Below are positions 24,114 to 57,666 of a stretch of 64,000 bases of DNA, one piece after another. Location: NCBI GenBank assembly GCA_016887485.1, contig CP069395.1:1-64000 (forward strand), read 5' to 3'. Numbering within the stretch: position 1 is the first letter of the stretch; the number at the start of each line of letters is the position of its first letter. The DNA comes from Chloroflexota bacterium (GTDB taxonomy: Bacteria; Chloroflexota; Anaerolineae; Anaerolineales; Anaerolineaceae). A program made the position numbers and the translations under genes. Under the pieces are notes generated by a model. The model did not search any database and was not told the DNA's origin. It saw nothing but the letters and a program-made list of their open reading frames with translations.

Positions 24114-25079
24114 TCACCCACGCTTATTGAAAACCATGGCACCCGCACCAATAACACCTGCTTCATCACCTAGCTGCCACGGTTTCAATTCAAAACTATC
24201 CAATAGCTGCGGCTGAATGCTCTCCCGCAGCCCTTTCATGGCTGGCTCAAACACCCTCTCGCCCATCCGGGTTAGCCCGCCGCCATAAACGATCAGCTCC
24301 GGATTCACAATTTGGGCGATAATGGATAAGCCTACACCAAAATAATACCCTGAAGTATCAATAATTTCATTCGCAATTCGGTCCCCTTGCTGGGCGGCTT
24401 CCAAAATCAGGCTGCCATGGATCCGCTTACGGTCAGGTGTGGCATATTGGGTCAGGAGGGTCTCCTCACCAGCATCAATCTGCTCGTAGGCCATACGGGA
24501 GATGCCCACCCCACTGGCATAAGCCATCAGGCATCCATTCTTACCGCAAGTGCAGGGCGGCCCGCCGACATCCACCACGATATGCGCAATTTCACCGGCT
24601 GTGCCAGTCGCGCCCACATAAAGCCCGCCATCTATAATAATTCCGAGGCCATAACCTGTGCTATAGGTCGCATAGCACATATTCCGGCTGCCGCGGCCTG
24701 CGCCATAGTGATATTCGCCCAAAGCACATAAATTGGTGTCGTTTTCCAGGATCACCGGCCTGCCAATCTTGCTGGCAACGGTATCCCTGAGGGGCACTTT
24801 ATGCCAGGCTGGCAGGTTCGAACTGATCAAAACCAGCCCATCCGGGCCATTAACTGTGCCTGCAAATCCGATGCAGACACCCTCAATCTCGTCCGGATCG
24901 ATCCCACAATCATCAATCAGGGCAAAATAAGCTTTTTCAATCGCATCAATAACATATTGGGGTTCTTTTTCAGAATGGGCGCGGGTCTTGTAACAAGACG
25001 TGACTTCACCATCCCGATTAATAATACCTGCAGCTATTTTGGTGCCCCCCACATCAATACCTACAGCGTACTCTTTCAT
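24114..25079 (-). CDS. ROK-family sugar kinase with altered sugar-site Glu
   Basis: A 321-residue ATP-dependent hexose kinase. N-terminal GIDVGGTKIAAG phosphate loop, catalytic Asp 114 in LENDTNL, GEIAH (162-166) and zinc Cys 176, 178 and 183 in CTCGKNGC are all present. The Glu that follows in most ROK kinases (GCxE, a sugar hydroxyl contact) is Met 185 here: GCLMAYAS. The other two ROK proteins in this window keep the Glu. From family knowledge this Glu contacts the O1/O2 region of the sugar, so the substrate may lack or differ at an anomeric hydroxyl; that is inference. It lies 29 bases before the glycyl radical enzyme gene. Confidence 0.88.
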   Translation of the reverse strand: MKEYAVGIDVGGTKIAAGIINRDGEVTSCYKTRAHSEKEPQYVIDAIEKAYFALIDDCGIDPDEIEGVCIGFAGTVNGPDGLVLISSNLPAWHKVPLRDTVASKIGRPVILENDTNLCALGEYHYGAGRGSRNMCYATYSTGYGLGIIIDGGLYVGATGTAGEIAHIVVDVGGPPCTCGKNGCLMAYASGVGISRMAYEQIDAGEETLLTQYATPDRKRIHGSLILEAAQQGDRIANEIIDTSGYYFGVGLSIIAQIVNPELIVYGGGLTRMGERVFEPAMKGLRESIQPQLLDSFELKPWQLGDEAGVIGAGAMVFNKRG

Positions 25080-25096
25080 AAAATCCTCTTATACTT

Positions 25097-25783
25097 TTAA
25101 TTTAGCCTGATCGCATCATCTACGGCTTGTTTGAACGCCGCAACATTCTCAACCAGGTCACTTTGAGGTTTGAAGATGCTGGATGTGCCACAAATAAAAT
25201 GATTACATCCAGCATCCAGGAATGTCGCTAATCGACCCTCAGAAACCGACCCATCAGCAGCTATTTCCATCTCCAAACCAAGTTGCGCCACCACGTCACG
25301 GATTTTCTTCATGTTCGTGACGCCATGTGGATTGAAAGGCTGACCTGCGTAGGCCGGGCCCACCAGATTAACCACCACCTGAGAGACTATACCCAGGGCC
25401 TTATCAATATCCTCAGGCACTTCAGAAGTCGGTAAAATGCCTAATCCAGCCTCCAGACCCAGATCTCGGACCCGTTGAATGGCTTCAAGATAGTCCTCGC
25501 CCCGCGTTTCCAGCTGGATCACCACAACATCCGCCCCACCCTGCTTCAATTCTTCCAGGTATTTCGACGGGTAATGGCAATACAGATGCACATCGAATCG
25601 CTTTGTTGATAAAGGGCGAAGCGCTTTGATCAGCGCCGGGCTGAGGAGGAATGTCGGTGCGAACACCCCATCGCAAAGATCAAAGTGATAGGTATCGGAT
25701 ACCGAACGTTCCAGTCGTTCAAAATCATGGCTTATGCAAATTGGATTTGCACAAGCCACGGATGCAGAAATGCGAAAGGTCAT
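25097..25783 (-). CDS. Ribulose-phosphate 3-epimerase family protein, divergent paralog
   Basis: A 228-residue TIM-barrel protein of the RPE family. The metal and acid/base residues survive: YHFDLCDGVFAP (His and Asp of HxDxxDG), FDVHLYCHYP (second His) and EIAADGSVS (catalytic Asp). It differs from canonical RPE by DLCDG instead of DIMDG and by a divergent N-terminus (SASVACANP). Expected activity is C3 epimerisation of a ketose phosphate. It is not the AlsE orthologue, which is at 32790-33491, so it probably serves a related substrate made by the neighbouring ROK/GRE pair. Seventeen bases separate it from the ROK gene. Confidence 0.8.
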   Translation of the reverse strand: MTFRISASVACANPICISHDFERLERSVSDTYHFDLCDGVFAPTFLLSPALIKALRPLSTKRFDVHLYCHYPSKYLEELKQGGADVVVIQLETRGEDYLEAIQRVRDLGLEAGLGILPTSEVPEDIDKALGIVSQVVVNLVGPAYAGQPFNPHGVTNMKKIRDVVAQLGLEMEIAADGSVSEGRLATFLDAGCNHFICGTSSIFKPQSDLVENVAAFKQAVDDAIRLN

Positions 25784-25790
25784 AGTTGTA

Positions 25791-25807
25791 ATAAATGGCT
25801 ATACGAA
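25791..25807 (-). repeat. Dispersed intergenic motif, copy 4
   Basis: On the minus strand TTCGTATAGCCATTTAT, between the epimerase-like and GATase-like genes inside the operon. Confidence 0.5.
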
Positions 25808-25812
25808 ATTAG

Positions 25813-26565
25813 TTAAATTTCTTTAGCCAGCCATTTCAGAATATTGGTGAACAGGATCTCGTAACCTTCCCAATCCAGGAATTCCTTCGTGCCCCAATGC
25901 GGCGCGAGGTCGGAAGCAAAGGCAAATGACCTGCCCTGTCCATAATCCCAGGCTGCCATGAAGGTGTCGCCATCAATTTTGGCAATCTCGTCAGCCTCAT
26001 CCTTGGCCATGATCTTGTTATAGCCCAGGAACTCAGGCCAGGCGCTGTTTTCAATACCCTTCAGGACGGGATGATCAGCCTTGGTGACCACCGGCGTAAC
26101 ACCTTCAGGGTGTTCCATCCGGTCATCCCAATTGAGCATATCCACCGGTAACACATCGGCGATGGGGGTCATGGCATAGCGGGCCTTATTTTCCAGACCG
26201 GCAAAGCTCAAATAACCACCGCACATCAACAAGCCGCCCCCCGCTTTGACATAATCCTGAATGGCCAGTAGACGGTTCCCCTTGCGCACGCCATTGAACT
26301 GCATCTCAGGATCAAGAAGCAATGTGTTACTGCCGCAGTCACTGATGATCACGGCATCGTATTGGCTCAATTCCTCCGCTTTTTGCGGGAATTTTGATTG
26401 GGCAATATGGTTTGGATAATAGTCCAACTCAACGCCTGTGTCTTTGAGAACCTCAAAGAACCGATCGGCGAAAAAGTCTTCATAGCGATTCAATACCGCA
26501 GTATCAAAGCCCTTCATATGGGTTTCTGCAACGATCCAAGACTCGCCTGCCATTATGATCTTCAT
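25813..26565 (-). CDS. GATase1/ThuA-like protein (DUF1355-type)
   Basis: A 250-residue cytosolic protein of the class I glutamine-amidotransferase-like fold (PF07090-type). It opens MKIIMAGESW and has a possible nucleophile elbow at GLLMCGGYLSF (Cys about 123); WPEFLGYNKI and the C-terminal WDYGQGRSFAFASDLAPHWG are typical of this group. No synthetase partner is present, so ammonia transfer is unlikely; relatives are found in sugar and glycosaminoglycan loci with unknown role. AAGGAAC precedes the ATG. Its place between the permease and the epimerase suggests a role in sugar processing. Confidence 0.75.
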   Translation of the reverse strand: MKIIMAGESWIVAETHMKGFDTAVLNRYEDFFADRFFEVLKDTGVELDYYPNHIAQSKFPQKAEELSQYDAVIISDCGSNTLLLDPEMQFNGVRKGNRLLAIQDYVKAGGGLLMCGGYLSFAGLENKARYAMTPIADVLPVDMLNWDDRMEHPEGVTPVVTKADHPVLKGIENSAWPEFLGYNKIMAKDEADEIAKIDGDTFMAAWDYGQGRSFAFASDLAPHWGTKEFLDWEGYEILFTNILKWLAKEI

Positions 26566-26607
26566 GATGTTCCTTTCTTGATTAGATCCTAATCAAAATC
26601 TGCGAGG

Positions 26608-27603
26608 TTATTTCTTTTGCCTCATGATGAATGTATCCAATGACACGGCTGCGATAATAAGGGCACCCATAACGACCTGCTGATAGAACGAGTCAATCCG
26701 CATCATGTTCAAACCGTTGTTGATCAAACCAATAACCAGACCACCAATAACCACATTCCAGACTCGGCCTTTACCGCCGAAGAAGCTGGTCCCACCGATG
26801 ATGGCGGCTGCGATAGCGAAGGTCTCATAACCAGAAGCGGCCAGAGGTTCAGCAGCACCGGTCTTTGCTGTGATGACCATACCGGCGATACCGGCACAAA
26901 TCCCGGAGATGATGAAAACGATCAGCGTATAGAACTTGATATTGATGCCGGAGAACCAGGCAGCTTCTTTGTTGCCACCGAAGGCATAGATGTTCCGACC
27001 CAATTTTGTCCGGGTCGTCACGAACCACAGGATGACCGCCAGGAACAAGGCAATGATAATGGCCATTGGTATTTGGCCAAACAACCTGTAGTTGATGATC
27101 GCCTTGAATTGGGGCGGGAAACCGGAAACAGCTCGAGCGTCTGAGATGATCATGATCAGGCCGCGGAAGATCCAGTTTGTGCCCAGGGTAATAATAAAGG
27201 GATGCACACCGGTGAAGTTCACCAGAAGACCATTGATTGCGCCCAGCACACCACCGCCGACAATACAACCCAGAAAAACCGCCAACAGAACAGGCATCCC
27301 GGCGTTCATCAATTTGCCGGCGAGGAGGCCGGTCAGCGCGAGGATCGAACCTACAGAAAGGTCAATCCCGGCGATCAGGATGGCAAAGAACTCACCCAGG
27401 CCGATGATGATCTTATCGGAACTCTGATAAAGGATGTTGATCAGGTTCGTTGGGGTAAGGAAATTGCTGTTGTCAGCAGAAAATACAGCAATAAAGCCAA
27501 CAAGGAGCAGCAAAATCGCCGCTGTTCCAAAATTCTCCCAAATTTGGCTAAAACTCTTCTTCGGTTTAACAACTTTTGTATTATCCATTTCCAGATCTTC
27601 CAT
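26608..27603 (-). CDS. alsC: D-allose-type ABC transporter permease
   Basis: A 331-residue CUT2 permease (RbsC/AlsC family) with eight to ten hydrophobic segments. GIDLSVGSILAL, GVHPFIITLGT and AIAAAIIGGTSFFGGKGRVW are diagnostic. It starts three bases after the ATPase stop. It works with the ATPase at 27607-29121 and the tandem binding protein at 29238-31142. The symbol follows from the clearly AlsB-like binding protein and the AlsK/AlsE neighbours. Confidence 0.88.
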   Translation of the reverse strand: MEDLEMDNTKVVKPKKSFSQIWENFGTAAILLLLVGFIAVFSADNSNFLTPTNLINILYQSSDKIIIGLGEFFAILIAGIDLSVGSILALTGLLAGKLMNAGMPVLLAVFLGCIVGGGVLGAINGLLVNFTGVHPFIITLGTNWIFRGLIMIISDARAVSGFPPQFKAIINYRLFGQIPMAIIIALFLAVILWFVTTRTKLGRNIYAFGGNKEAAWFSGINIKFYTLIVFIISGICAGIAGMVITAKTGAAEPLAASGYETFAIAAAIIGGTSFFGGKGRVWNVVIGGLVIGLINNGLNMMRIDSFYQQVVMGALIIAAVSLDTFIMRQKK

Positions 27604-27606
27604 TTC

Positions 27607-29121
27607 TTATGTTGCTGCTAGAATAATTTTCTCTTCAGTTGCTTCTGAACTATCCAGCCTGGCGCTGATCTCACCCTTCTTGAATACCAGGATCCGATCA
27701 CACACACTTAACAGCTCCGGCAGCTCAGAAGACACCATAATGACACCCTTCCCCTCATCAACCAGTTCCCGCATGATCTTATAGATTTCGCTCTTGGAAC
27801 CAACATCAATCCCTCTGGTGGGCTCATCAAACAGAATCACTTCTGCATCCGCACAAAGCCATTTACCAATAATGACTTTTTGCTGGTTGCCGCCAGAGAG
27901 CTTGGTGATATTTTGAAATACTGAGGTGCACTTAATCGCCAGTTTGTTTTTCTGCGTTTCAGCCTTCTTCTTTTCATCGGCTGAGTTAATCCGACCCGTT
28001 GCTCCTTTTAGCTTCGAGTGCTTCAGATGCTCCACAATGGAAACATTCTTATAAATCTCAAAGTTATGGAAGAAGCCGGTCTCTCTACGGTTTTCTGTCA
28101 ACAGAGCAAGGCCTTTTTTCACAGCATCATAAGTATCATTGATCTTGATCTCTTCCCCATTGAGATAAACTGTGCCGCTTTCTTTCGGTTCTGCGCCAAA
28201 GAGCGCATTCAACAACTCAGTCCTACCCGCCCCCATCAGACCGGCAAAGCCCAGAATCTCATGTCGTCGAAGCTGGAAGCTGACATCCCTGACCTTATTG
28301 TCAGGTGTTGTGAGGTTTTTGACCTCAAAGACAATTTCCTCCGTGCCTTCACTTTTATTTCTCGTAGAGAAATATTTGTCTTTGAGCTCTCGTCCGACCA
28401 TCATCAGGACGATCTCTTCTTTGGACTTGATCTCTGAGAGCGCTTTTGTTCCAACCAGTTTTCCGTCTTTTAACACCGTTATACGATCGCCAACCTGATT
28501 GATTTCATCAAGTTTGTGCGAGATATAAATAATGCCGACACCTTCATCCCGAAGATTCCGAATAATTTTAAAGAGCCTATTGATTTCCTCAGGTGTAAGG
28601 GATGAGGTAGGTTCGTCCATGATTAGGATTTTGGCTTCCATCACAAGCGCTTTGGCAATTTCGACAAGCTGCTTTTCCGAGATGGAGAGTTCCTGGACGA
28701 AAGTTGACGGGGGTTTCTTCAAGCCAACCATTTGTAACATCTCAGCCGCTTTGTTATTGATGTATTTCCAATCAACAACGGAAGCGCCCAAAACCTTCTT
28801 GGTAGGTAATCTTCCAATGAATAAATTTTCTGCGATCGAAAGCTCGTTGATAACGCTAAGTTCCTGATAAATGATACTGATACCCAATTCCTGGGATAAG
28901 GTCGGGTTGAGCTGTGAGTAGGTCTTCTCACCAATAATGATCTTTCCGCTGGTGGGGGTATATACACCGCTCAAGATCTTCATCAGGGTAGATTTACCTG
29001 CACCATTTTCACCGACCAGAACGTGCACTTCCCCTTCATTCAAGTCAAATGAAATATCATCAAGGGCAGTCACCCCAGGGAATTCCTTGGTTATGTTCTG
29101 CACTTCAATTAGTTTTGTCAT
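27607..29121 (-). CDS. alsA: D-allose-type ABC transporter, double ATPase
   Basis: A 504-residue CUT2 ATPase with two fused ABC modules. First: Walker A GENGAGKST, signature QELSISEKQ (degenerate), Walker B ILIMDEPTSSL. Second: degenerate Walker A GLMGAGRTEL, signature KLSGGNQQK, Walker B VILFDEPTRGID. This pairing of one intact and one degenerate site is normal for RbsA/AlsA/XylG. It follows the binding-protein gene after a strong hairpin. Confidence 0.92.
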   Translation of the reverse strand: MTKLIEVQNITKEFPGVTALDDISFDLNEGEVHVLVGENGAGKSTLMKILSGVYTPTSGKIIIGEKTYSQLNPTLSQELGISIIYQELSVINELSIAENLFIGRLPTKKVLGASVVDWKYINNKAAEMLQMVGLKKPPSTFVQELSISEKQLVEIAKALVMEAKILIMDEPTSSLTPEEINRLFKIIRNLRDEGVGIIYISHKLDEINQVGDRITVLKDGKLVGTKALSEIKSKEEIVLMMVGRELKDKYFSTRNKSEGTEEIVFEVKNLTTPDNKVRDVSFQLRRHEILGFAGLMGAGRTELLNALFGAEPKESGTVYLNGEEIKINDTYDAVKKGLALLTENRRETGFFHNFEIYKNVSIVEHLKHSKLKGATGRINSADEKKKAETQKNKLAIKCTSVFQNITKLSGGNQQKVIIGKWLCADAEVILFDEPTRGIDVGSKSEIYKIMRELVDEGKGVIMVSSELPELLSVCDRILVFKKGEISARLDSSEATEEKIILAAT

Positions 29122-29189
29122 AGCGTTTCATTTCTAATCAAGGATAGTTGATTTTGCTATAGTGAATAATAAACGAAAATTCCAGAGTT

Positions 29190-29220
29190 GTACGGCCGTT
29201 CCATAAAGGAACGGCCGTAC
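29190..29220 (-). other. Intercistronic hairpin between alsB and alsA
   Basis: GTACGGCCGTTCC (29190-29202) and GGAACGGCCGTAC (29208-29220) form a perfect 13-bp stem with a 5-base loop. On the minus strand no U tract follows, so it fits a message-stabilising stem or partial attenuator rather than a full terminator. Confidence 0.8.
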
Positions 29221-29237
29221 ATTTCAACTACTAATAA

Positions 29238-31142
29238 CTACTCTACGTATTCACCAACATTCTCAGGTGAAATCAGAACGGAATCAACATATTGGAAGGC
29301 AGGTTCCGCATCAACGGAGCCAGCGTTGCCATTTTGAACAGCTTCGAGGAGCATATTGAAACAAACCACGCCGATTTGGGCGGGGTCCTGAGCCACTGTG
29401 GCGGACATGCGGCCTTCAGCGACAGAGGTGAATGCATCCGGAATACCATCGGTGCCGACGACCATGATCTGGTCAGCCAGACCGGCGTTTTCCACAGCTT
29501 CCTGAACACCGAGTGCCATGGTGTCATTGGCGCAGTAGAAAGCCTTGAGGTCAGGATATTGGCTGATGATGTTGGTGGCAACATCGAGGGCCTTGTTGCG
29601 GTCCCAGTCAGCGGGCTGTGAGGAAACGATTTCATAACCGGCAGCCAGGAAGGCTTCTTCAGCGCCCTGTTTGCGGTCTTCACCACTTGCATTGCCAGCT
29701 TTACCTTCGATGATGGCAACCTGACCGGGTTCGGTGTTCTCAATGATGTAAGCAGCGCCTGTGCCGCCAACCTGGACATTGTCCGTGGTGGCGAAGCCAA
29801 CAACATAACCGCCGGCTGCGGCGAGTTCATCTGCATCGATTTTCTCATCCAGGTCAACAACAGGGATGCCGGCTGCATTGGCTGCAACCACACCCTCGAT
29901 GGCGTTGGTGGGGGAAATCGGGGCGATACCAATGCCGTCATAACCCTGGCCAGCAGCTGTGAGCAATTTGTCCAGCTGTCCGGACAGTTCATCTTCGGAG
30001 TTCATGGCATCAACGTAAACTTCCACGCCAGCTTCTGCTGCCGCGGCTTCAATACCTTCCTTCATCGCAACCCAGTGCGGGTTGGAGAGGGTTTTCAGCA
30101 GGAAGTAAAAGCTCAGAGGTTCAGCGTCAACTTCTTCAGCCTCGGTATCTTCAACATATTCACCAACATTCTCAGGTGAAATCAGAACGGAATCAACATA
30201 CTGGAAGGCAGGTTCCGCATCAACGGAGCCAGCGTTGCCATTTTGAACAGCTTCGAGGAGCATATTGAAGCAAACCACGCCGATTTGGGCGGGGTCCTGA
30301 GCCACTGTGGCGGACATACGGCCATCAGCAACAGAGGTGAATGCATCCGGGATACCATCGGTGCCGACGACCATGATCTGGTCAGCCAGACCGGCGTTTT
30401 CCACAGCTTCCTGAACACCGAGTGCCATGGTGTCATTGGCGCAGTAGAAAGCCTTGAGGTCAGGATATTGGCTGATGATGTTGGTAGCAACATCGAGGGC
30501 CTTGTTGCGGTCCCAGTCAGCGGGCTGTGAGGAGACGATTTCATAACCGGCAGCCAGGAAAGCTTCTTCAGCGCCCTGTTTGCGGTCTTCACCACTTGCA
30601 TTGCCAGCTTTACCTTCGATGATGGCAACCTGACCGGGTTCGGTGTTCTCGATGATGTAAGCAGCGCCTGTGCCGCCAACCTGGACATTGTCCGTGGTGG
30701 CGAAGCCAACAACATAACCGCCGGCTGCGGCGAGTTCATCTGCATCGATTTTCTCATCCAGGTCAACAACAGGGATGCCGGCTGCATTGGCTGCAACCAC
30801 ACCCTCGATGGCGTTGGTGGGGGAAATCGGGGCGATACCGATGCCGTCATAGCCCTGACCAGCAGCTGTGAGCAATTTGTCCAGCTGACCGGACAGTTCA
30901 TCTTCGGAGTTCATGGCATCAACGAAAACTTCCACACCGGCTTCTGCTGCCGCGGCTTCAATACCTTCCTTCATCGCAACCCAGTGCGGGTTGGAGAGGG
31001 TCTTCAGCAGGAAGTAAAAGCTCAGGCCTTCGCCTGCGGCGGCTTCTTCAGTGGGTTCTGTCGCTGGGGTTGTACAACCTGTGATAACGGTGGTCATCAT
31101 AACAGCGATAACCAAAATCAATAGAAATTTCTTCTTACCCAT
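29238..31142 (-). CDS. alsB: Tandem-duplicated D-allose-binding lipoprotein
   Basis: A 634-residue lipoprotein, twice the usual length (about 310). Lipobox VITGC lipidates Cys 23. Residues 40-331 and 343-634 are two complete periplasmic-binding-protein domains with a period of exactly 303 residues, joined by an 11-residue acidic linker (DTEAEEVDAEP). They differ at only two residues (Phe/Tyr in VEVxVDAM, Asp/Glu in SVAxGRM). Each copy carries the AlsB hallmarks KTLSNPxWVxMK, VDLDEKID, VAIIEGKAGNASGE, SQPADWDR and YCANDTMA, close to E. coli AlsB, so D-allose is the likely ligand. It has its own LacI-type operator upstream. Two ligand sites on one anchor should raise local ligand capacity. Confidence 0.93.
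   Translation of the reverse strand: MGKKKFLLILVIAVMMTTVITGCTTPATEPTEEAAAGEGLSFYFLLKTLSNPHWVAMKEGIEAAAAEAGVEVFVDAMNSEDELSGQLDKLLTAAGQGYDGIGIAPISPTNAIEGVVAANAAGIPVVDLDEKIDADELAAAGGYVVGFATTDNVQVGGTGAAYIIENTEPGQVAIIEGKAGNASGEDRKQGAEEAFLAAGYEIVSSQPADWDRNKALDVATNIISQYPDLKAFYCANDTMALGVQEAVENAGLADQIMVVGTDGIPDAFTSVADGRMSATVAQDPAQIGVVCFNMLLEAVQNGNAGSVDAEPAFQYVDSVLISPENVGEYVEDTEAEEVDAEPLSFYFLLKTLSNPHWVAMKEGIEAAAAEAGVEVYVDAMNSEDELSGQLDKLLTAAGQGYDGIGIAPISPTNAIEGVVAANAAGIPVVDLDEKIDADELAAAGGYVVGFATTDNVQVGGTGAAYIIENTEPGQVAIIEGKAGNASGEDRKQGAEEAFLAAGYEIVSSQPADWDRNKALDVATNIISQYPDLKAFYCANDTMALGVQEAVENAGLADQIMVVGTDGIPDAFTSVAEGRMSATVAQDPAQIGVVCFNMLLEAVQNGNAGSVDAEPAFQYVDSVLISPENVGEYVE
29241..30116 (-). repeat. Intragenic repeat of alsB, second copy (residues 343-634)
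   Basis: 876 bases that align without gaps to 30150-31025. I count about 21 differences (near 97.6% identity), of which two change the protein. Confidence 0.92.
30150..31025 (-). repeat. Intragenic repeat of alsB, first copy (residues 40-331)
   Basis: The first copy of the duplication, offset 909 bases from the second. It follows the signal peptide and a short acidic linker. Confidence 0.92.
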
Positions 31143-31288
31143 TTAATATTCTCCTTATAAGGTTAATTTTGGAACTTGTCATCCTTCAAACCTATTCAGC
31201 AGTTTTTCAATCTTCCGGCCGGAGCCGTTGTGGCGTCAGTGATCTGACCTTATAGATTGGCTTTTGAGACTTTCAACCATCTCCCTTC

Positions 31289-31306
31289 CGGGTAATGGTT
31301 TACTCA
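31289..31306. promoter_or_regulatory. Second LacI-type operator, upstream of alsB
   Basis: CGGGTAATGGTTTACTCA matches the 18-base palindrome at the regulator's promoter (34565-34582) at 15 of 18 positions. It lies 147 bases before alsB in the 269-base gap after rpiB, which suggests that alsB has a separate, co-regulated promoter. No clear -35/-10 pair is seen. Confidence 0.65.
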
Positions 31307-31411
31307 TTGGACAGACGTGTTCCATTTGACTGTAAGTGAAATCGCCCTTTTTTGGGCCCTTTTTCCTCGAATATGTATAGTGCCTCCTTCTCTTCTTTCC
31401 TGGTCAAGTGA

Positions 31412-31885
31412 TTACTCTCCCACCATATCAGCATCAAGAACAAGGGTTCTGTCCTTGTCAATCATCATAATTTGTTCAACTCGCTTGGCGTGCCGCCCAC
31501 CTTCAAATTCACCATCTAGCCAGGTCCTCACGATCATCTTGGCCAACTCTGTGCCCACCACCCTGCTGCCCATTGCCAGCATATTGGTGTCATTATGCTG
31601 CCTGGAAAGAAGGGCTGAATAAGGTTCACTGCAGACAACGCACCGGATGCCTTCAACTTTGTTTGCGGCAAGCGAGATCCCAATACCGGACCCGCAGCAG
31701 ATAATCCCTTTTTCACATTCACCACTGGCCACGGCCACCGCTGCTTTATAGCCAAATTCAGGATAATTACATCGTTCTTCGCTGTAGGTGCCATAATCCT
31801 TAAAAACGATGCCCATCTCATCCAGAAGTTGAGCGATGGCCTTTTTTAAAGGAAGCCCTGCGTGATCACTGCCCAGAGCTATCAT
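31412..31885 (-). CDS. rpiB: Ribose/allose 5(6)-phosphate isomerase B
   Basis: A 157-residue sugar-phosphate isomerase. IALGSDHAGLPLKK at the N-terminus, catalytic Cys in ICCGSGIGISLAANK, and HNDTNMLAMGSRVVG are all diagnostic of RpiB/LacAB. In E. coli RpiB also converts D-allose 6-phosphate to D-allulose 6-phosphate, and its place here between alsK and alsB fits that activity. Its start overlaps the alsK stop by four bases (ATGA). Confidence 0.93.
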   Translation of the reverse strand: MIALGSDHAGLPLKKAIAQLLDEMGIVFKDYGTYSEERCNYPEFGYKAAVAVASGECEKGIICCGSGIGISLAANKVEGIRCVVCSEPYSALLSRQHNDTNMLAMGSRVVGTELAKMIVRTWLDGEFEGGRHAKRVEQIMMIDKDRTLVLDADMVGE

Positions 31886-32796
31886 TTTCCTGCTCCTTCC
31901 AGCTGCTTGCGAGCGAACAGCCCCGCACCAATCACACCATTATAGGGATTGGAAAAATCGGAACGGATGATATTCAACGAATCACCGGGTAAGGGTTTAC
32001 GGGTGAATTGATGGATATAATCAATCAGTAAGTCATAGGGGAAGTCTGTCATCCCAATCACGCCACCGCCCAGGATGATGTAGTCCGGGTTGAGAATATT
32101 GATCTCGGTGACGATGATCTTCGCCATGCTTTCGATGAAGTAACGGATCTCTTCGGTCTGGCCCTGCACAGTGAAAATCTTGGCAATGGGGGTTTCTGAG
32201 AAGCGTTCTCGTTGAAGCCTTTCCAAGCCTAGGCCAGCGACATACAGCTCAGAGCATCCTTCCAACCCGCAGCCGCACTTATCGTGCCGGTCGAGGATCG
32301 GAATATGACCAAGTTCTCCAGCCACACCATCCTTGCCAACGATGACCTTGCCATCAATGAGGATGATATTGCCCAGGCCAGTACCGATGTAGTAGCCGAT
32401 CAAAATGCCATCGGAGATATCATGCCGGTCCAGATCATAGTGCATGAGCATACAGGTGTCTTTTTCGATCAGGACTGGAACCTGGAGTTTTTCTTCAAAC
32501 TGGTCAATAATATCCAGGTTATCAAACCCTTCGATATTGGGGGTTGAAAGCACTACCGTCCGATCCCGGTTGATCGTGGATGGGAAACCCATCGCAATGG
32601 CGTCAACATCATAAGGTAAGTTTTTCTTATATTGATAAATGACATCCAGAAGGCGGTCGGCGGCGTCTGCACCGGCAATCTGCTTTGTGGAGAAAATTTC
32701 AGCGTTCTCCAAAGTGGAATCAGGCGTGACTACACCAAGACGGACATTGGTGCCGCCAATATCAATACCCAGGAAATTATCAGACCGCTTTATAAT
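31882..32796 (-). CDS. alsK: D-allose kinase (ROK) with apparent AUU start
   Basis: A ROK kinase close to E. coli AlsK: AMGFPSTINRDRTVVLSTPN, AGELGHIPILDRHDKCGCGLEGC (shown in part) and ILGGGVIGMTDFP align block by block. It should phosphorylate D-allose at O6. The first ATG/GTG/TTG codon in frame is TTG 32712, which would remove the ATP loop. Upstream the frame still encodes FLGIDIGGTNVRLGVV, so translation must begin earlier. Between that block and the upstream in-frame stop there is no ATG, GTG or TTG. The best candidate is ATT 32796 (reading I/M-IKRSDNFLGID) behind a G-rich GGGGGTGGC, overlapping the alsE stop by seven bases. CTG 32772 is a weaker alternative. The coordinates assume ATT. 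Confidence 0.82.
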   Translation of the reverse strand: MIKRSDNFLGIDIGGTNVRLGVVTPDSTLENAEIFSTKQIAGADAADRLLDVIYQYKKNLPYDVDAIAMGFPSTINRDRTVVLSTPNIEGFDNLDIIDQFEEKLQVPVLIEKDTCMLMHYDLDRHDISDGILIGYYIGTGLGNIILIDGKVIVGKDGVAGELGHIPILDRHDKCGCGLEGCSELYVAGLGLERLQRERFSETPIAKIFTVQGQTEEIRYFIESMAKIIVTEINILNPDYIILGGGVIGMTDFPYDLLIDYIHQFTRKPLPGDSLNIIRSDFSNPYNGVIGAGLFARKQLEGAGK

Positions 32797-33491
32797 GCCA
32801 CCCCCGTCGCCTCGGTGAATTCTGCTTTCATCAACTTACAACCTTCTTCCAATTCGATACCTGGTTTGAATAAACCGCTGGTCCCTACAACAAAAGCCCG
32901 TGCCCCAGCTTCATAAAGCGGTTGATAGTTTTTCTTCCCGATTGCGCCATCCACCTGGATGACATAGTGATAATCACGGTCAAGGCAAAGGTCCCTGGCC
33001 TCAGCGATCTTCTCGAACATTCTGGGGATGAATTTCTGACCGGCATAGCCAACCTCAACCGTCATGATGGTGAGGATATCAATCTGATCCAAATACCAAT
33101 CCGCCATCGAAAGCGGAGTCGCCGGGCATAGTACGATCCCAACCTTGATGCCAAGGTCTTTAATCCTGCGGATGATCCGGTAGGATTCCCTCTGAATGGT
33201 CTCCGCATGAAGGGAGATTGTCTCAACGCCAGCCTCAGCCAGGGCATCAATATAATCGTTTGGCGAGGTCACCATCAGATGCGCCTCAACAGGAATAGTC
33301 GCCACACTCTTGATGGCTTTGACAATATCAACGGAGAGGGTGATATTCTTGGCAAAATGCCCATCCATGATGTCGGCATGCAGCATATCACAATGCCGGT
33401 TGAGGATCTCGATTTGTTTTCCAACCTCAAGAAAATCGAGACACATCAGCGAAGGTGAGAAAAGGGGTTTGCTATCCATAACTTTATCCAT
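32790..33491 (-). CDS. alsE: D-allulose 6-phosphate 3-epimerase
   Basis: A 233-residue TIM-barrel epimerase. FSPSLMCLDFLEVGKQIE, LHADIMDGHFAKN, EAHLMVTSPNDYI, TIMTVEVGYAGQKFIP and VGTSGLFKP match E. coli AlsE better than housekeeping Rpe. Metal ligands His, Asp, His, Asp are present, the last in IQVDGAIGKK. It converts D-allulose 6-phosphate to fructose 6-phosphate, completing the allose route with AlsK and RpiB. I use ATG 33491; TTG 33500 and ATG 33479 are alternatives. Confidence 0.88.
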   Translation of the reverse strand: MDKVMDSKPLFSPSLMCLDFLEVGKQIEILNRHCDMLHADIMDGHFAKNITLSVDIVKAIKSVATIPVEAHLMVTSPNDYIDALAEAGVETISLHAETIQRESYRIIRRIKDLGIKVGIVLCPATPLSMADWYLDQIDILTIMTVEVGYAGQKFIPRMFEKIAEARDLCLDRDYHYVIQVDGAIGKKNYQPLYEAGARAFVVGTSGLFKPGIELEEGCKLMKAEFTEATGVAL

Positions 33492-33532
33492 TAATGACAA
33501 TTCTTTCGTTATACAGGCTGAAGCAGAAAAAA

Positions 33533-34543
33533 TCAGAGTTGGGTTGAGCCTCTGACGACGACATTGATTGGAAACTTTATATAAGACTTCTCTACCGGGT
33601 TTCCATCCATCATTGAAACAAGGTTTTTGACGGCCAACTCAGCGATCATATCCACGGACTGGTGAATGGTCGTCAGTTGCGGAATACTTCTGGTGCAGGC
33701 GGCAATATCATCAAAACCAATGATCTTGAGGTCCTCAGGAACGTTGACATTTCTCTTTAGACAATATTGCAGTGCGCCAAGGGCCAGAATATCGGCTGTG
33801 TAAAAAATACCATCCACATCGGGATGTTCTCTCAGCAGCTCATCTGTGACTTCAAAACCGTCTTCATAGGTCACGGCCTTGGTGCAATAGATCAGGCTTT
33901 CATCAACCGAGATCCCAGATTCCCGTAAGCCTCGTTTATAGCCTTCACACCGGTTATGGTGGGAGGAAATCTGTCCCTCAAGACAGACGAGTGCGATCCG
34001 CCGGCAACCCTGGTCAACCAGATGCCTTACCGCCTGGCGCCCCCCTTCCGTGTTTTCACTCTCGATGAAGACATTCTCTTCCTGAGAGCTGATGCATAAA
34101 GGTTCCCGGTCAATGTAGATTGTTGGGACGATCAGGGTGTGATTAGTGTCAATCGATTCATGCGTAATATAGATCAAGCCGCTCACCAGCATGGACTTCA
34201 ACATGGAGAGATGGGCTCGTTCAATATCACCGGATTCATTGGTGTTGCAAATGATGGCCATATAATCTTCGTTGAGCAGCCGGTTTTGCATTTCAAGCGC
34301 CATCTTGGCAAAGAATTCATTGGTAACGTCCGGGACGATGATACCTACAACCTTCCCCCTATTTTTCCGCAGGCCCCTCGCCATCTGGTTCGGTCGATAA
34401 TTGTATTTAGCGATAATTTCGTTAACGCGTTTTTCGGTTTCTTTTGAGAACCGTCCATTTTGGTTAATAACCCGAGAAACCGTTGCGATGGACACACCGG
34501 CCATGTGGGCTATTTCTTCTAAAGTAATTTTCTTCGTTGGCAT
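33533..34543 (-). CDS. LacI-family repressor of the allose operon
   Basis: A 336-residue LacI/GalR regulator. The N-terminal helix-turn-helix reads ITLEEIAHMAGVSIATVSRVIN, followed by a hinge (YNYRPNQMARGLRKNRG) and a sugar-binding domain that ends IGFDDIAACTRSIPQLTTI and VVVRGST. It is first in the minus-strand unit, behind a consensus promoter with an 18-base operator at +1, so it probably represses itself and the operon. E. coli als is controlled by an RpiR-type regulator instead; this is a different wiring. Confidence 0.9.
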   Translation of the reverse strand: MPTKKITLEEIAHMAGVSIATVSRVINQNGRFSKETEKRVNEIIAKYNYRPNQMARGLRKNRGKVVGIIVPDVTNEFFAKMALEMQNRLLNEDYMAIICNTNESGDIERAHLSMLKSMLVSGLIYITHESIDTNHTLIVPTIYIDREPLCISSQEENVFIESENTEGGRQAVRHLVDQGCRRIALVCLEGQISSHHNRCEGYKRGLRESGISVDESLIYCTKAVTYEDGFEVTDELLREHPDVDGIFYTADILALGALQYCLKRNVNVPEDLKIIGFDDIAACTRSIPQLTTIHQSVDMIAELAVKNLVSMMDGNPVEKSYIKFPINVVVRGSTQL

Positions 34544-34564
34544 CCTTGAAACCTTGGTTAACGT

Positions 34565-34582
34565 TGGGTAAAGGTTTACCCA
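34565..34582. promoter_or_regulatory. LacI-type operator at the operon promoter
   Basis: TGGGTAAAGGTTTACCCA: 8-base arms that are exact reverse complements around GG. It lies directly downstream of the -10 element. Confidence 0.8.
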
Positions 34583-34583
34583 T

Positions 34584-34612
34584 ATGATATATACACTTTA
34601 GAGATTTGTCAA
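34584..34612 (-). promoter_or_regulatory. Sigma-70-type promoter of the allose operon
   Basis: On the minus strand TTGACA (34612-34607), 17-base spacer, TATCAT (34589-34584). Transcription would start at about 34577, inside the operator. Confidence 0.8.
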
Positions 34613-34729
34613 TATAATAGAGCCTAGTTTTAACAATGGATTAAGCATATTTTAAGGTTTCATGAGGTTTATCCATTATCATAGTATGACTTTTGTTATT
34701 ATTCATTGCACAACGGGAGAGAATTCATC

Positions 34730-35695
34730 TTGATCACAATAGGCATTGATATCGGTGGGACGAAAATTGCTGCAGGTTATCTGGATAGCGAAAGAAAACT
34801 GAAGGGCTTTACAAAGGTCAATACAGCGGATGTCTTCGCTGCTGCGGATGATGCTGCAGACGCACTGCAGCTATTTATTAGCGAATACATTCAAGACCTT
34901 GGCTTTAATCGGGAATCAATCAAAGGTGTGGGCATCGGTGTCCCCTCCGTTCTGGATAGTCACACCCAGAAAGTCGTTTCAACCCCCTACATCCCCCTGC
35001 TCAACAATTACCCACTAAGCGTGCTTCTGGCTCCAAAAATCGGTGTGCCGATTTTTGTTGAAAATGATGTCAACCTGATCGCTATTGGTGAACACCTCTA
35101 CGGGCGCGGCAAGGACCTGACCGATCTGGCCTGCGTTTTTGTGGGCACGGGGCTGGGCTGTGGCCTGATCTTGAATAACCAGCTCTATACCGGCGCGGAT
35201 GGCGCCGCAGCCGAGTTTGGCCACTTAGTCCACAACGCTGAAGGCCGCATTTGTGGCTGTGGCGCGACGGACTGTTTCGAAACCTACTGCTCCGGATTTG
35301 CGCTGACCTATGAGGCCAAAAGGATCTTCCCCCAATCGGAGATAGACCTTTTTTATGCAACCGGCAGTAAGGGTGAATATTCCCTGGCGGAATATCTGAT
35401 CAACAAAGCACGGAATGGTCATCTGCAAGCCAAAGCGGCAATCGAGAAGTCGTTCAATATTCTTGGCATCGCGATCACCGATCTGGTCAATCTGCTCAAC
35501 CCCCAACTGGTTATCCTGGGCGGGGGGATCCTTGCGGGCTGGCCGGAAGCGCTGGATATCGTTAAAGAGATCGTTTATTCCCGGGCGCGAGCCGTCACAA
35601 GGAACCGTCTCGAAATTGACCGACCCATACTCAACGAAAAAGCCGGCTTATATGGCGCCGCAAGCCTGGTCAATTTAAAACTGGGAAATAATTAA
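34730..35695 (+). CDS. ROK-family sugar kinase, third paralog
   Basis: A 321-residue ROK kinase read divergently from the LacI gene. ITIGIDIGGTKIAAGYL, VENDVNLIAIGE (catalytic Asp), AEFGHLVHN and CGCGATDCFETYCSG (zinc Cys triad plus the sugar-site Glu) are intact. I take TTG 34730 as start because GGGAGAG lies about eight bases upstream; TTG 34706 would put that site inside the gene. It shares the regulator intergenic region, so it may belong to the same regulon. The sugar could be allose, glucose or N-acetyl-sugar; not decidable here. Confidence 0.86.
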   Translation: MITIGIDIGGTKIAAGYLDSERKLKGFTKVNTADVFAAADDAADALQLFISEYIQDLGFNRESIKGVGIGVPSVLDSHTQKVVSTPYIPLLNNYPLSVLLAPKIGVPIFVENDVNLIAIGEHLYGRGKDLTDLACVFVGTGLGCGLILNNQLYTGADGAAAEFGHLVHNAEGRICGCGATDCFETYCSGFALTYEAKRIFPQSEIDLFYATGSKGEYSLAEYLINKARNGHLQAKAAIEKSFNILGIAITDLVNLLNPQLVILGGGILAGWPEALDIVKEIVYSRARAVTRNRLEIDRPILNEKAGLYGAASLVNLKLGNN

Positions 35696-35720
35696 TTCGG
35701 AGTTCCATTATTTGGTATTT

Positions 35721-35755
35721 AAAAACCCACTGAGTCCGAGCTTCAGTGGGTTTTT
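35721..35755. terminator. Bidirectional terminator between convergent genes
   Basis: AAAAACCCACTGA (35721-35733) pairs with TCAGTGGGTTTTT (35743-35755), with A/T tails on both sides. It serves the ROK gene (+) and the epimerase gene (-). Confidence 0.9.
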
Positions 35756-35775
35756 ATTATCATCAAAAGTGCTGA

Positions 35776-36468
35776 TTAGGCACCTACTATTTTATTGACC
35801 TTTTCGCGGACCATTTGCACCGCCTTGCCAAGGTCATCATCCAGATTGAACAACCCGGAAGTGCCCACGACCAATACATTGGCGCCCGCCTGAATCACGC
35901 TCTCGAAGGTCTTGTCATTGATCTGACCGTCCACCTGAATATCGACATCAAGGTTGCGCGCCTCAATCATCTCCCGCAGCTTGCGAATCTTATCAAGCAT
36001 CGGCATAAGGAAGCTCTGTCCGGCAAAACCAACATCCACAGTCATCACAGTCACCATTTGGAGGTCATCGAGCAGATATTCCAGATCGATCAGCGGGGTC
36101 TTGGGGGAGATCACCACACCGGCTTTTCGGCCTGCTTTATGGATTGTCTGCACCGCACGGAAGATGTGCGGGGTCGATTCAAATTGCAGGCTGATAATGT
36201 CCGAGCCGGTTGCCGCAATTTCGGGGATGAACCCGGCCGGGTCCGCAATGCACATATGAACATCAAAAGGTTTCTTGGTGAAAGGTCGGCAGGCGGTGAT
36301 CAAATCGGGGGTGAGGCAGAAATTATGGACAAAAACGCCATCCATAACATCCCAGTGAAAGAGGTCCACGCCCGCTTCATCCAACAGCTTCACCTGATTA
36401 CCCAACTGGCTAAGATCTGCACAAACAACTGAGGGACTGATTTTGATTTCGTTCATCATTACCATCAT
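35776..36468 (-). CDS. AlsE/RPE-family epimerase, third paralog
   Basis: A TIM-barrel epimerase of about 230 residues. ISPSVVCADLSQLGNQ, FHWDVMDGVFVHN, FDVHMCIADPAGF, VTVMTVDVGFAGQSF, IQVDGQIND and VGTSGLFNLDDD follow the AlsE/RPE pattern with all metal ligands. It resembles AlsE at least as much as housekeeping Rpe. It is convergent with the ROK gene. Several ATGs cluster at the start (36468, 36465, 36459, 36456); GAGAAAG upstream favours 36468. Substrate unknown; one of three RPE paralogs within 12 kb. Confidence 0.85.
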   Translation of the reverse strand: MMVMMNEIKISPSVVCADLSQLGNQVKLLDEAGVDLFHWDVMDGVFVHNFCLTPDLITACRPFTKKPFDVHMCIADPAGFIPEIAATGSDIISLQFESTPHIFRAVQTIHKAGRKAGVVISPKTPLIDLEYLLDDLQMVTVMTVDVGFAGQSFLMPMLDKIRKLREMIEARNLDVDIQVDGQINDKTFESVIQAGANVLVVGTSGLFNLDDDLGKAVQMVREKVNKIVGA

Positions 36469-36853
36469 TTCTTTCTCGTTTCCAAAAAACCTGGTCATGC
36501 CGTAAGCTTATTCAGATTTTTGGGTCGGTGGAATATAACTTTATGTGAATAATTACCAATTTCTACCATTATATTGACTTGTTCAGCAAAAATCAGTTGG
36601 GATTATAACCTAAAAAACTGGGATTTTTGGCATTAATCCCAGTCAGAAACGAAAATTAGGGCTCCCCTCCTCTTTTTTTCCCAATTTTCCTTGGCGAAAC
36701 TTTTTACAAGAAATTTACTTAATCAGAATGACAGGTATATGCAGACAGGTATAATACTTCTGGCTTAGGTAAACTTTTGTCACCAAGGCAACGAACATAA
36801 GCAGACTCAACCGTTGCCATATCACTCGTAGTCGTAACGATGGACCACTTCCG
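36469..36853. other. Divergent intergenic region, 385 bases
   Basis: It holds the promoters of the epimerase (-) and the sulfotransferase (+), and a hairpin at 36617-36643. No other gene or repeat seen. Confidence 0.5.
36617..36643 (-). terminator. Leader hairpin with U tract upstream of the epimerase gene
   Basis: ACTGGGATT (36617-36625) pairs with AATCCCAGT (36635-36643). On the minus strand TTTTTTAGG follows. No minus-strand gene lies upstream, so it would act as a leader terminator or attenuator about 150 bases before the epimerase start, or block antisense transcripts from the sulfotransferase region. Confidence 0.5.
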
Positions 36854-54991: not shown

Positions 54992-55125
54992 ATTAGCGCT
55001 TTGGGCCGGTTCGCCGTGTGGGTTGGTGTGATGGTGAGAGGGCTAACCGGTGGGATATTGGTAGTTCAATCGGTAATTATAACGGGGAACCGCGCGAGAT
55101 TCAATTTAATTTAGGCATATCAACT

Positions 55126-55191
55126 GTAGGGTGCGCATCGCTCTTATGAGCACTTTTTTGGTGGTGCGCTCAACTACGGAGCGCACCCTAC
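55126..55191. repeat. REP pair (BIME-like), copy 1
   Basis: Two inverted REP units. Left: GTAG then a GGTGCGCAT hairpin whose right arm has decayed (ATGAGCACT). Right: a perfect GGTGCGCTC/GAGCGCACC hairpin followed by CTAC, which is GTAG on the other strand. Confidence 0.85.
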
Positions 55192-55273
55192 AATTGCATT
55201 ATTTGGCAGAAGATTGAACTTGGTTCATCATCTGATGTACTTAAAATCAAGAAATATCCCGAAACAATTTTTC

Positions 55274-55341
55274 GTAGGGTGCGCAACTCTTTTATGCGCA
55301 CCATTATTATTCGGTGCGCTCAACTACGGAGTGCACCCTAC
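55274..55341. repeat. REP pair (BIME-like), copy 2
   Basis: Same paired-hairpin structure with GTAG feet at both outer ends; left stem GGTGCGCA/TGCGCACC intact, right stem with one change (GAGTGCACC). Confidence 0.85.
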
Positions 55342-55422
55342 AATTAATTTATTTGGCAGAAGATTCAACTTGGTTCATCGTCATATGTACTTAAGATCAG
55401 GAAATATCCCGAAACAATTTTC

Positions 55423-55491
55423 GTAGGGTGCGCATCGCTCATATGCGCACCATTATTTATTCGGTGCGCTCAACTTCGGAGCACACCCTAC
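55423..55491. repeat. REP pair (BIME-like), copy 3
   Basis: Left hairpin with GGTGCGCAT/ATGCGCACC intact, right hairpin with GAGCACACC. Its right foot ends four bases before the RAYT stop. Confidence 0.85.
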
Positions 55492-55494
55492 TGA

Positions 55495-56046
55495 TTACTC
55501 TCCAAAATTGTACTTATTCTCATTTCGTTGATCATCCCAGCCCCAACTATCATCATAAATTCCTGATTTTACATACTCATGGAAACTCGAATCCGGCCAA
55601 TCATCCAAATTTTCCACCAGCCCGTGTTTGATTGGGTTGTAATGAATGTAATTAATATGACGTTCCAGATCCTGTTCATCACGGATTAAATGCTCCCAAA
55701 ATCGACGTTGCCAGATAGCAGCTTCACGACGTTTGGTGCGTGAGATATCTGGAGGTCCTGGCTGCCCACCGTTAAGACGATATTGTTTTGTAAATCTCGC
55801 CTTGATTAACCCAACCCGCAAAGAGTAATCATGATCACTCTCTAGCAGGGTCCAAATTAGGTGAATGTGATCCGGGAGAATACAATAAGCCACCATTGTA
55901 AATGGATGAAAAGTCCTTACGTGCATTATTGTGTCCAATAATAATGATCGATTCTCAGGATTGCTGAAAATCTTATACCTTTGGAAAGTCACCAACGTGA
56001 AGAAATATGTTCCACCCTTAATGTAAATGCGGCGATATTCAGACAT
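55495..56046 (-). CDS. REP-associated tyrosine transposase (RAYT)
   Basis: A 183-residue Y1/HUH single-strand nuclease. It starts MSEYRRIYIKGGTYFFTLVT, typical of TnpA_REP, and has the HUH motif in CILPDHIHLIW and the catalytic Tyr region ERHINYIHYNPIKHGLV, preceded by WQRRFWEHLIRDEQDLE. All landmarks are intact. REP copies 1-3 follow its stop and copy 4 lies 43 bases before its start, so gene and repeats form a REPtron. RAYTs are thought to spread REP sequences. AAGGGGTTG precedes the ATG. Confidence 0.92.
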   Translation of the reverse strand: MSEYRRIYIKGGTYFFTLVTFQRYKIFSNPENRSLLLDTIMHVRTFHPFTMVAYCILPDHIHLIWTLLESDHDYSLRVGLIKARFTKQYRLNGGQPGPPDISRTKRREAAIWQRRFWEHLIRDEQDLERHINYIHYNPIKHGLVENLDDWPDSSFHEYVKSGIYDDSWGWDDQRNENKYNFGE

Positions 56047-56088
56047 TAATGGACAACCCCTTCATTGTGTGGATCTTACATTATTTTC

Positions 56089-56154
56089 GTAGGGTGCGCA
56101 TCTCTTTTATGCGCACCTTTTTTGTGGAGCGCTCAAATCCGGAGCGCACCCTAC
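56089..56154. repeat. REP pair (BIME-like), copy 4
   Basis: GTAG-hairpin and inverted hairpin-CTAC, upstream of the RAYT and directly behind the stop of the lipoprotein gene at 56161. Confidence 0.85.
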
Positions 56155-56160
56155 ATGGTT

Positions 56161-57492
56161 TTATTCCCAATTGATTTGATAGAAAATGATTTGTACTTCG
56201 TCAAATGAAAAACCCACATTCTCAGAAATCATGTCGAGGTAAAAATCTTCATCGGCTTCTATACCAGAATCATCCATGATTTGGTCCAGGTAAGCAACAC
56301 AAGGATTTTTAAGCGACTGATTGATAATATCAAAATGCAACATGGTATTTAGAGACAAAGGGTCTGCCACTACTCCCCCTGTTTGCGGATTGTATTCAAT
56401 ATCAATGTATCGATCAAGTCCTTCAATCGATTCATCCATAAATAGGATATATTCATCAAGCTGTTGACTTCTATTGAATAAACCCAATTCAACTAAATAA
56501 TATTTTTCACGCTCACCTGAATAATCATGCTCACTTAGATAGTAACTTGATAAATAATAATTTTCGTCAATCCATTCAACAAGAATAATTGAAAACAAGT
56601 CTACATCTAAACCTTCAACCTCAGTAAATGCTCCATCTTCATAGAGAAGCATTCTCTGAAGCATCTGTAATAAATAACGATCCGGATCATTTTCGTCTGG
56701 AACCCACCATAGGTTTCTCAAAAACCAGACTGATTCATCGGGGACTGTCACAGAGCCCAAATATTCCAATGACGGAACGGAATACAACTTAAATAATATA
56801 ATCTGTGGCGGCTCGCCAGCATATTCAAAAGAGGGATCGCATATTCCACGTGGTAATGGAACGGCAATCGTACTCTCGTCCCACGACCATCTTATGGTTT
56901 GACTATGCGGCGTCATTTTGCCAACAATTTGTTGCAAATCGACATCAAATAACGAAACGAATGTTGGATAGATCAGCGCGATATATTTCCCTGACGGCGA
57001 TAATTCAACCTGATAAGATCTCAGTTCAGTAAAATCACTCGCATAAACTATCTCCCATTGATCGCCAAGCGTCTTATCCAAAATCGTGATCCGGGTGTAA
57101 CCTTCACGCTGTTCACTAATGACTAGCCTGTCATAAGTGTCATTAAAATGCGGCCGCCAGGAATTTTCACCATCTATACCAACTTTCGAGATATCAATGC
57201 TTGAGAGGACCTCCATGGATGCCTGGCAGAGTGGAAGGTCAGCGATGGTTCCATTCGCCATGGCTCTACCCTGCTCCATGAAGCTCAGCTCTTCCGTTTC
57301 TTCCAACACAGGCATTTCGGTGGCAGTCTCAGCAATTTCCTCCGTTTGATCAGGAGCTTCCGTTTCAGATGGAGAATATTCTGTTCCAGTATCCACTTTG
57401 GAAGGAACCTGATCAATTGGCGTAGTCTGACAAGAAGCAATCATCAAGACGAATAGGAGTGCAAGAAAGGCTTTTCTTAGTCGATTATTCAT
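56161..57492 (-). CDS. Lipoprotein, propeller-like, unknown role
   Basis: A 443-residue lipoprotein. Lipobox MIASC near residue 21, an acidic Thr/Glu linker (about 30-70), then a beta-rich domain with propeller-like blades (VELSPSGKYIALIYP, RWSWDESTIAVPL). No catalytic motif. It resembles the lipoprotein at 50531-51760 in plan. REP pairs lie on both sides of it (copies 4 and 5). Confidence 0.75.
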   Translation of the reverse strand: MNNRLRKAFLALLFVLMIASCQTTPIDQVPSKVDTGTEYSPSETEAPDQTEEIAETATEMPVLEETEELSFMEQGRAMANGTIADLPLCQASMEVLSSIDISKVGIDGENSWRPHFNDTYDRLVISEQREGYTRITILDKTLGDQWEIVYASDFTELRSYQVELSPSGKYIALIYPTFVSLFDVDLQQIVGKMTPHSQTIRWSWDESTIAVPLPRGICDPSFEYAGEPPQIILFKLYSVPSLEYLGSVTVPDESVWFLRNLWWVPDENDPDRYLLQMLQRMLLYEDGAFTEVEGLDVDLFSIILVEWIDENYYLSSYYLSEHDYSGEREKYYLVELGLFNRSQQLDEYILFMDESIEGLDRYIDIEYNPQTGGVVADPLSLNTMLHFDIINQSLKNPCVAYLDQIMDDSGIEADEDFYLDMISENVGFSFDEVQIIFYQINWE

Positions 57493-57582
57493 TTTTCTCC
57501 TTTACGAAGAATTTCGCGGACTATCAACTGGTATGTAATGATCCCAATGATCACCGGATGCGCTTAACACCAGATCTTTTTT

Positions 57583-57649: not shown

Positions 57650-57666
57650 ATAACAATTTTCGTTAA

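Follow-up and report, generated by a model that had tools for sequence, protein, structure and literature searches.

The AlsB-type sugar-binding protein encoded in the window, the 64-kb stretch of Anaerolineaceae DNA analysed here, carries two near-identical sugar-binding domains behind a single presumed lipid anchor, and comparison with a sister species indicates that the two copies evolve in concert. We consider it likely that the domains are equivalent, that recombination and selection acting together keep the copies alike on their shared anchor, and that the arrangement provides more like sites per porter.

Architecture of the twin-domain AlsB

The alsB gene of the window (29238-31142, reverse strand) encodes a protein of 634 residues from an ATG start. 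The protein displays a linear organisation, all elements lying on the reverse strand, that begins with a signal peptide bearing the lipobox ITGC and the presumed lipid-anchor cysteine C23 (31074..31142), recognised by the lipobox pattern and a model helix at residues 4-16. C23 is invariant among 8 aligned tandem sugar-binding proteins. A flexible spacer follows (residues 24-39; 31026..31073), with model pLDDT under 50 at residues 19-37, and leads to the first sugar-binding domain (residues 40-331; 30150..31025), an 11-residue acidic linker, DTEAEEVDAEP (residues 332-342; 30117..30149), and the second sugar-binding domain (residues 343-634; 29241..30116). The two domains repeat with an offset of exactly 303 residues, or 909 nt. 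Each half matches Peripla_BP_4 of Pfam, and NF007254, the AlsB equivalog of NCBIfam, aligns in two stretches, the whole protein scoring 727.7 bits against a cutoff of 335. Copy 1 is homologous to the E. coli D-allose-binding protein (PDB code 1gub; query residues 4-283, E 2.9e-83). In place of the single binding domain per chain expected of an AlsB, the window protein has two. Judging from this homology and from the gene neighbours described below, the window protein is presumably a D-allose binder.

The two copies differ at 21 of 876 nucleotides, 20 of which are third codon positions, and only two residues change, F73Y and D273E. The sequence-only reading had proposed a fused tandem behind one lipobox, which the open reading frame, the lipobox with C23 and the two Peripla_BP_4 halves bear out, and its domain boundaries, period, linker length and estimate of about 21 base differences, two of them amino-acid changing, proved exact. 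The codon-based comparison that it suggested gave dN of 0.003 and dS of 0.096 (NG86), a dN/dS of ~0.03. At 875 nt and 97.7% identity, this is the longest repeat in the 64-kb window, followed by one of 219 nt at 86% (blastn, E 1e-5).

Gene neighbourhood and the associated importer

The alsB gene is flanked upstream by rpiB and downstream by genes for an AlsA-like ATPase and then an AlsC permease, all on the reverse strand. The next gene after alsB (27607..29121) encodes an AlsA-like ABC ATPase with two ABC_tran stretches that scores 753 bits with NF007253, just under the cutoff of 772, and the AlsC-like permease (26608..27603) reaches 436.8 bits with NF007252 (cutoff 396). Together, the double-ABC ATPase and the BPD_transp_2 permease constitute a CUT2 importer. 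AlsB is a separate open reading frame with its own lipobox and AlsC a separate gene, with no fusion of the binding protein to the membrane subunit. On the other side lie the RpiB isomerase (31412..31885; TIGR01120, 186 bits, cutoff 138.65), an AlsK-like allose kinase (31882..32712; NF007251, 281.3 bits, cutoff 253), an AlsE-like D-allulose-6-phosphate 3-epimerase (32790..33500; NF007266, 278 bits, cutoff 271) and a LacI/RbsR-type regulator (33533..34543) whose best match, NF047341 at 232 bits, is below the cutoff of 382. The allose gene set around alsB therefore comprises AlsC, AlsK, AlsE and RpiB above their cutoffs and AlsA slightly below.

Several other features of the window were observed. 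The region 24114-36498 contains three AlsE/Rpe-like epimerases (25097, 32790, 35776) and three ROK-family kinases (24114, 31882, 34706), of which only one epimerase and one kinase pass the allose-specific cutoff. Between the AlsC and epimerase genes, positions 25813-26565 encode a 250-residue protein with no NCBIfam match at 1e-20, and in the sister genome (locus L034) the AlsC gene is likewise followed by one for a similar protein. Farther along, at 55121-57650, a 40-nt repeat occurs five times, four copies being alike over 67 nt (GTAGGGTGCGC...GCGCACCCTAC, with palindromic ends) and the first three spaced ~149 nt apart; one copy folds as single-stranded DNA far better than its shuffles (z -4.7). 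We take these repeats to be REP- or MITE-like. Rfam and tRNA scans of the 64-kb window returned 0 matches each.

Constraint, conserved residues and predicted structure

Of the 21 changes between the window copies, two alter the amino acid, whereas 71-75% would do so in the absence of constraint (binomial P 4e-10 to 8e-9). This codon pattern indicates that both copies have been under purifying selection since they were last identical. An alignment of 21 rows, comprising the window AlsB, L034 and 19 single-domain AlsB proteins, revealed 68 invariant columns, and all 68 residues are kept in both window domains. They include D129/E130, R187, N236, D262 and Q282, each with its partner at +303. Arg141, Asn190, Asp215 and Gln235 are tabulated as binding-site residues of the E. 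coli ribose-binding protein in a published report (PMC2630998); by motif and spacing, R187, N236, D262 and Q282 would be their equivalents.

The AlphaFold2 model of the window AlsB (mean pLDDT 89) displays two confidently folded domains. The pTM is 0.52 and linker residues 332-339 have pLDDT under 50, and the model therefore does not fix the mutual orientation of the domains. Both halves look functional by these measures of sequence and model, which place two domains on each chain; more than one domain per porter is predicted.

That the extra domain serves chiefly as a spacer or stalk, or alters specificity, and is not a second equivalent receptor, appears improbable. Such a role would suit ten other tandems of the class whose halves are only 25-36% identical and could bind different ligands, but in the window protein the complete invariant set, with the residues listed above and their partners at +303, is present in both halves.

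AlsB copies evolve in concert in sister species

The search for a two-domain AlsB in related genomes, as proposed from the window alone, was successful. A genome of the same genus (G009, probably Anaerolineaceae bacterium WOFB10; WOYY01000098.1, locus L034) encodes a two-domain AlsB that is 87% identical to the window protein over residues 1-633, with the same period of 303 and the same linker length of 11 residues. No frameshift separates the halves of this one other tandem AlsB. The two linkers are identical at 20 of 33 nucleotides, a level reached in 0 of 20,000 shuffles.

The copies differ at 20 of 873 nucleotides within the window and at 14 of 873 within L034, compared with 163-165 of 873 between the genomes. 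Synonymous divergence follows the same pattern, with dS of ~0.09 within the window, 0.04 within L034 and 1.13-1.21 between species. The species distance is genuine, as AlsC presents a dS of 1.27 for the same pair and AlsA is saturated. When the four copies are compared over 873 sites, 146 group by genome, 0 by copy, 1 is crossed, 31 show other patterns and 695 are constant. Because 146 sites follow the genome and none follows the copy, the AlsB copies evolve in concert, and these site patterns indicate that each genome's two copies became alike only once the species had split. The shared period and the homologous linker suggest that the duplication itself is the older event, as concerted evolution supposes. 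For AlsB itself a single species pair provides the case for concerted evolution, because only two tandem AlsB sequences, those of the window and L034, were found among the relatives.

The near-identity had been ascribed at first to strong purifying selection or gene conversion. The constraint stands, since only 2 of the 21 changes are nonsynonymous, but selection as the cause of the near-identity does not. That purifying selection alone has kept two old copies alike is barely conceivable: the dN/dS between the window copies agrees with it, but the synonymous sites are alike too, and a dS of 0.04-0.10 within genomes versus 1.13-1.21 between them requires homogenisation, for which purifying selection is insufficient.

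The L034 copies share an 827-nt identical run, longer than any in 20,000 permutations, and 13 of their 15 differences (over 876 nt) lie within the last 60 nt. This distribution is characteristic of a homogenised tract bordered by an older edge. Between the window copies, clustering of the differences is weak: the longest stretch of identity is 188 nt (p 0.13 with all sites counted, 0.04 with polymorphic sites), and because the differences are spread no single conversion tract is visible.

An alternative is that each lineage doubled a single-domain gene anew, and that the likeness of the copies merely reflects their youth. The copies are indeed young in both the window and the sister genome, and the closest other AlsB, from a Leptolinea assembly (L035; G099 carries the same gene), is single-domain and 88% identical over the domain; the many clusters of tandem genes in the class, described below, likewise suggest many origins. 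Independent doubling would nevertheless have had to yield the same 303-residue period and 11-residue linker, with 20 of 33 linker nucleotides identical, on both sides of a dS of 1.13-1.21. The C-terminal edge of the L034 repeat is also far more diverged than its 827 identical nucleotides, which a fresh duplication does not readily produce, and five other species pairs group by position, in keeping with tandems that persist through speciation. On balance, independent recent duplication is unlikely, and recombination between the repeats is the most likely route of concerted evolution, as judged from these sequences.

Distribution of tandem sugar-binding proteins

Among 60 homologous AlsB loci, 58 are single-domain, one is double (L034) and one is a fragment that was left unscored (L093). 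The earlier statement that family members are single-domain thus holds for 58 of 60 AlsB loci, and fails for L034 of the same genus and for other sugar-binding proteins of Anaerolineae. Seven of 147 genomes of the window's family match copy 1 at E 1e-45: G000 and G009 carry a double AlsB, G099 a single one, and four others single-domain proteins at 39-43% identity. Other two-domain sugar-binding proteins had already surfaced in the first search for relatives, and the search of the 147 family genomes supplied further tandems.

The class, Anaerolineae as given by the lineage of Anaerolineaceae, was surveyed with a profile of eight tandems from the window's order, a row being counted as tandem when it covered 500 or more of the 639 profile positions and extended over 1.5 kb or more. 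Tandem sugar-binding proteins were found in at least 54 of 396 genomes, under 19 family labels, at E up to 1e-70, and in at least 35 of 396 at the strict cut of 1e-95; three candidates were scored per genome, and these counts are thus lower bounds biased to look-alikes of the profile. At 1e-95, no tandem was found among 291 genomes from the class of a Clostridium (four candidates scored per genome) or among 249 from the order of a Rhizobium (five per genome). Excluding the window's own genome, 34 of 395 compare with 0 of 540 controls (Fisher p 8e-14), the test being confined to the Clostridium-class and Rhizobium-order sets because control sets share G818, G821, G822 and G851. The survey and the control counts alike are limited by the number of candidates scored in each genome and by the bias of the profile. 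Control rows with long open frames, G852 (690 residues) and G1394 (651 residues), carry one such domain each, as does the 316-residue frame of G845. Outside the phylum, none of 49 genomes with AlsB has a tandem at 1e-75 (up to 25 candidates scored), and a phylum-wide sample of 301 genomes, some of them of the class, returned only the window's own tandem at E up to 1e-90.

Two readings were rejected on this evidence. The fusion is not unique, given the sister species and the recurrent tandem CUT2 proteins of the class, and it is not a trait of AlsB only, given the 27 clusters of tandem ORFs described below.

Anatomy of the class-wide tandem set

The loci fetched contain 75 distinct multi-domain ORFs of two or three domains, with 87 domain pairs within ORFs. 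By amino-acid identity, 32 pairs are at ≥95%, 28 at 90-95%, 12 at 70-90% and 15 below 70%. At least one pair at ≥75% identity is present in 63 of the 75 ORFs and absent from 12; the 63 form 27 clusters at 60% identity, 19 at 40% and 39 at 80%. Three domains are found in L116, L118, L121, L162 and L181, and in L104/L225 a third copy is broken by a frame change. In the latter (L225:1504-4562), which belongs to a subfamily other than AlsB, the third copy is divided over two overlapping ORFs, by decay or sequencing error. Genomes of the same genus differ in domain number, L162 having three and L163 two, within one clade of the domain tree.

A tree was built from 263 domains. For 48 of its 74 multi-domain ORFs, the domains of the ORF make up a clade of their own; support exceeds 0.8 for 39 of these clades and is 0.61 or lower for 9. 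The remaining 26 ORFs comprise 10 with very different halves, 10 that make up five species pairs grouping by position (L108/L109, L112/L113, L179/L195, L187/L188 and L173/L175) and 6 mixed cases. The five position-grouping pairs mean that tandems pass through speciation. Synonymous divergence repeats the AlsB pattern in L010/L012, L142/L143, L022/L139 and L125/L128, and in L105/L106/L107 dS is 0.037-0.09 within genes and 0.42-1.59 between them, with a conserved linker. Homogenisation is not universal, as 12 of 75 ORFs have no pair at ≥75% identity and five species pairs group by position; in L177 the copies are homogenised, although those of the related L179 and L195 still group by position. 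A CUT2 permease or ATPase gene lies near the tandem gene in 17 of 18 extended loci, and L238 has none in its stretch.

Two kinds of unusual tandem were also observed. Ten have halves 25-36% identical (L127, L169, L171, L172, L174, L176, L178, L184, L190 and L191), possibly representing two specificities on one chain. Locus L231:2573-5530 encodes a 986-residue ORF with two sugar-binding domains and ~340 C-terminal residues unmatched by the domain model.

An assembly artefact or a mixture of strains is very improbable as the source of the tandems. Fully identical copies, as in L132 and L139, are what such an error would leave. The window copies, however, carry 21 differences with a strong synonymous bias, and another genome of the genus has the same fusion with differences of its own, so that the initial argument against an assembly duplicate is upheld. 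Tandems also lie inside very long contigs (G395 C1, 4,668,611 bases; G138 C1, 3,519,887; G101 C1, 3,573,743), and many tandem pairs are at dS 0.2-1.3. At least three contigs end inside a repeated domain, namely L257 (G549 C750), L259 (G549 C267) and L258 (G163 C8), which makes it more likely that assemblies lose copies than invent them. G494 C13 (L196) resembles these in the span of its profile match and in its contig end, and further tandems are probably concealed in fragmented assemblies.

Proposed mechanism and significance

Anaerolineae are not known to have an outer membrane, and their binding proteins would consequently be anchored. In the likely reading stated at the outset, the lipobox AlsB would present two complete and equivalent sugar-binding domains, joined by the flexible 11-residue linker, beside one AlsA/AlsC CUT2 importer. 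As in-frame direct repeats of 0.9 kb, the copies could recombine by gene conversion, or by unequal crossing-over through three-copy and one-copy states, and this recombination, together with selection for matching specificity, would keep the domains alike. The two-domain protein would offer more sites of the same specificity per anchor, such that while one loaded domain docks the other may capture sugar or wait. The twin domains probably provide more binding sites of the same kind per sugar pump, and a two-domain AlsB might achieve higher ligand capture or feed the porter alternately. By analogy with GlnPQ and OpuA, two equivalent receptors would feed one AlsAC porter.

A broader and doubtful possibility is that recombination between in-frame repeats works as an accordion, shifting the receptors of Anaerolineae reversibly among one, two and three like domains on a single lipid anchor, every form being in frame and able to work. 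If so, binding capacity would be tunable without new genes, and the same recombination would keep the domains alike.

The number of binding domains per ABC importer, and whether additional copies of the same domain bring a benefit, is reportedly an old question, posed by van der Heide and Poolman in 2002. The class seems to have run a repeated experiment on it, related genes having one, two or three like domains, and such natural series would allow the effect of an added identical receptor to be measured directly. The tandems also exemplify concerted evolution clearly, here within individual bacterial genes, and this has consequences for annotation, the dating of duplications and short-read assembly, in which repeats are easily lost.

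Comparison with known systems

Each half of the window AlsB is a full-length homologue of the E. coli protein AlsB/ALBP (PDB codes 1gub, 1gud and 1rpj), which has the same kind of gene neighbours. ALBP, in contrast, is a single domain in a chain of 288 residues. Other tandems of the class, such as L007, L010, L022, L105-L107, L118 and L162, have two or three similar Peripla_BP_4-like domains in one ORF, usually beside CUT2 porter genes. They belong to different sugar-binding subfamilies, the members of the eight-tandem alignment being 25-33% identical to the window AlsB over its length.

Among the matches listed from the open-licence PMC literature, judged by titles and the beginnings of abstracts, no paper dealt with this architecture; GlnPQ and OpuA did appear in titles. 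According to the GlnPQ report (PMC8025302), its tandem substrate-binding domains act largely independently and place several sites near one porter, four in the homodimer. GlnPQ resembles the window AlsB in having two tandem domains per chain with a short flexible linker (14 residues in GlnPQ, 11 in AlsB). As described there, the GlnPQ domains form one chain with the membrane subunit, take amino acids as ligands and have different specificities, whereas the window AlsB is a lipobox protein in its own right, belongs to the CUT2 sugar class and has near-identical copies. For OpuA, the published report (PMC11065425) proposes that after one domain delivers, the other stands close for the next round. 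OpuA thus resembles the proposed AlsB in having two binding domains beside one porter, but is a homodimer with the domains on the transporter itself and no tandem in a separate chain. Tandem binding domains as such are already known; what we rate as new is the recurrence, within one class, of lipobox CUT2 proteins with two or three like domains that are homogenised within genes.
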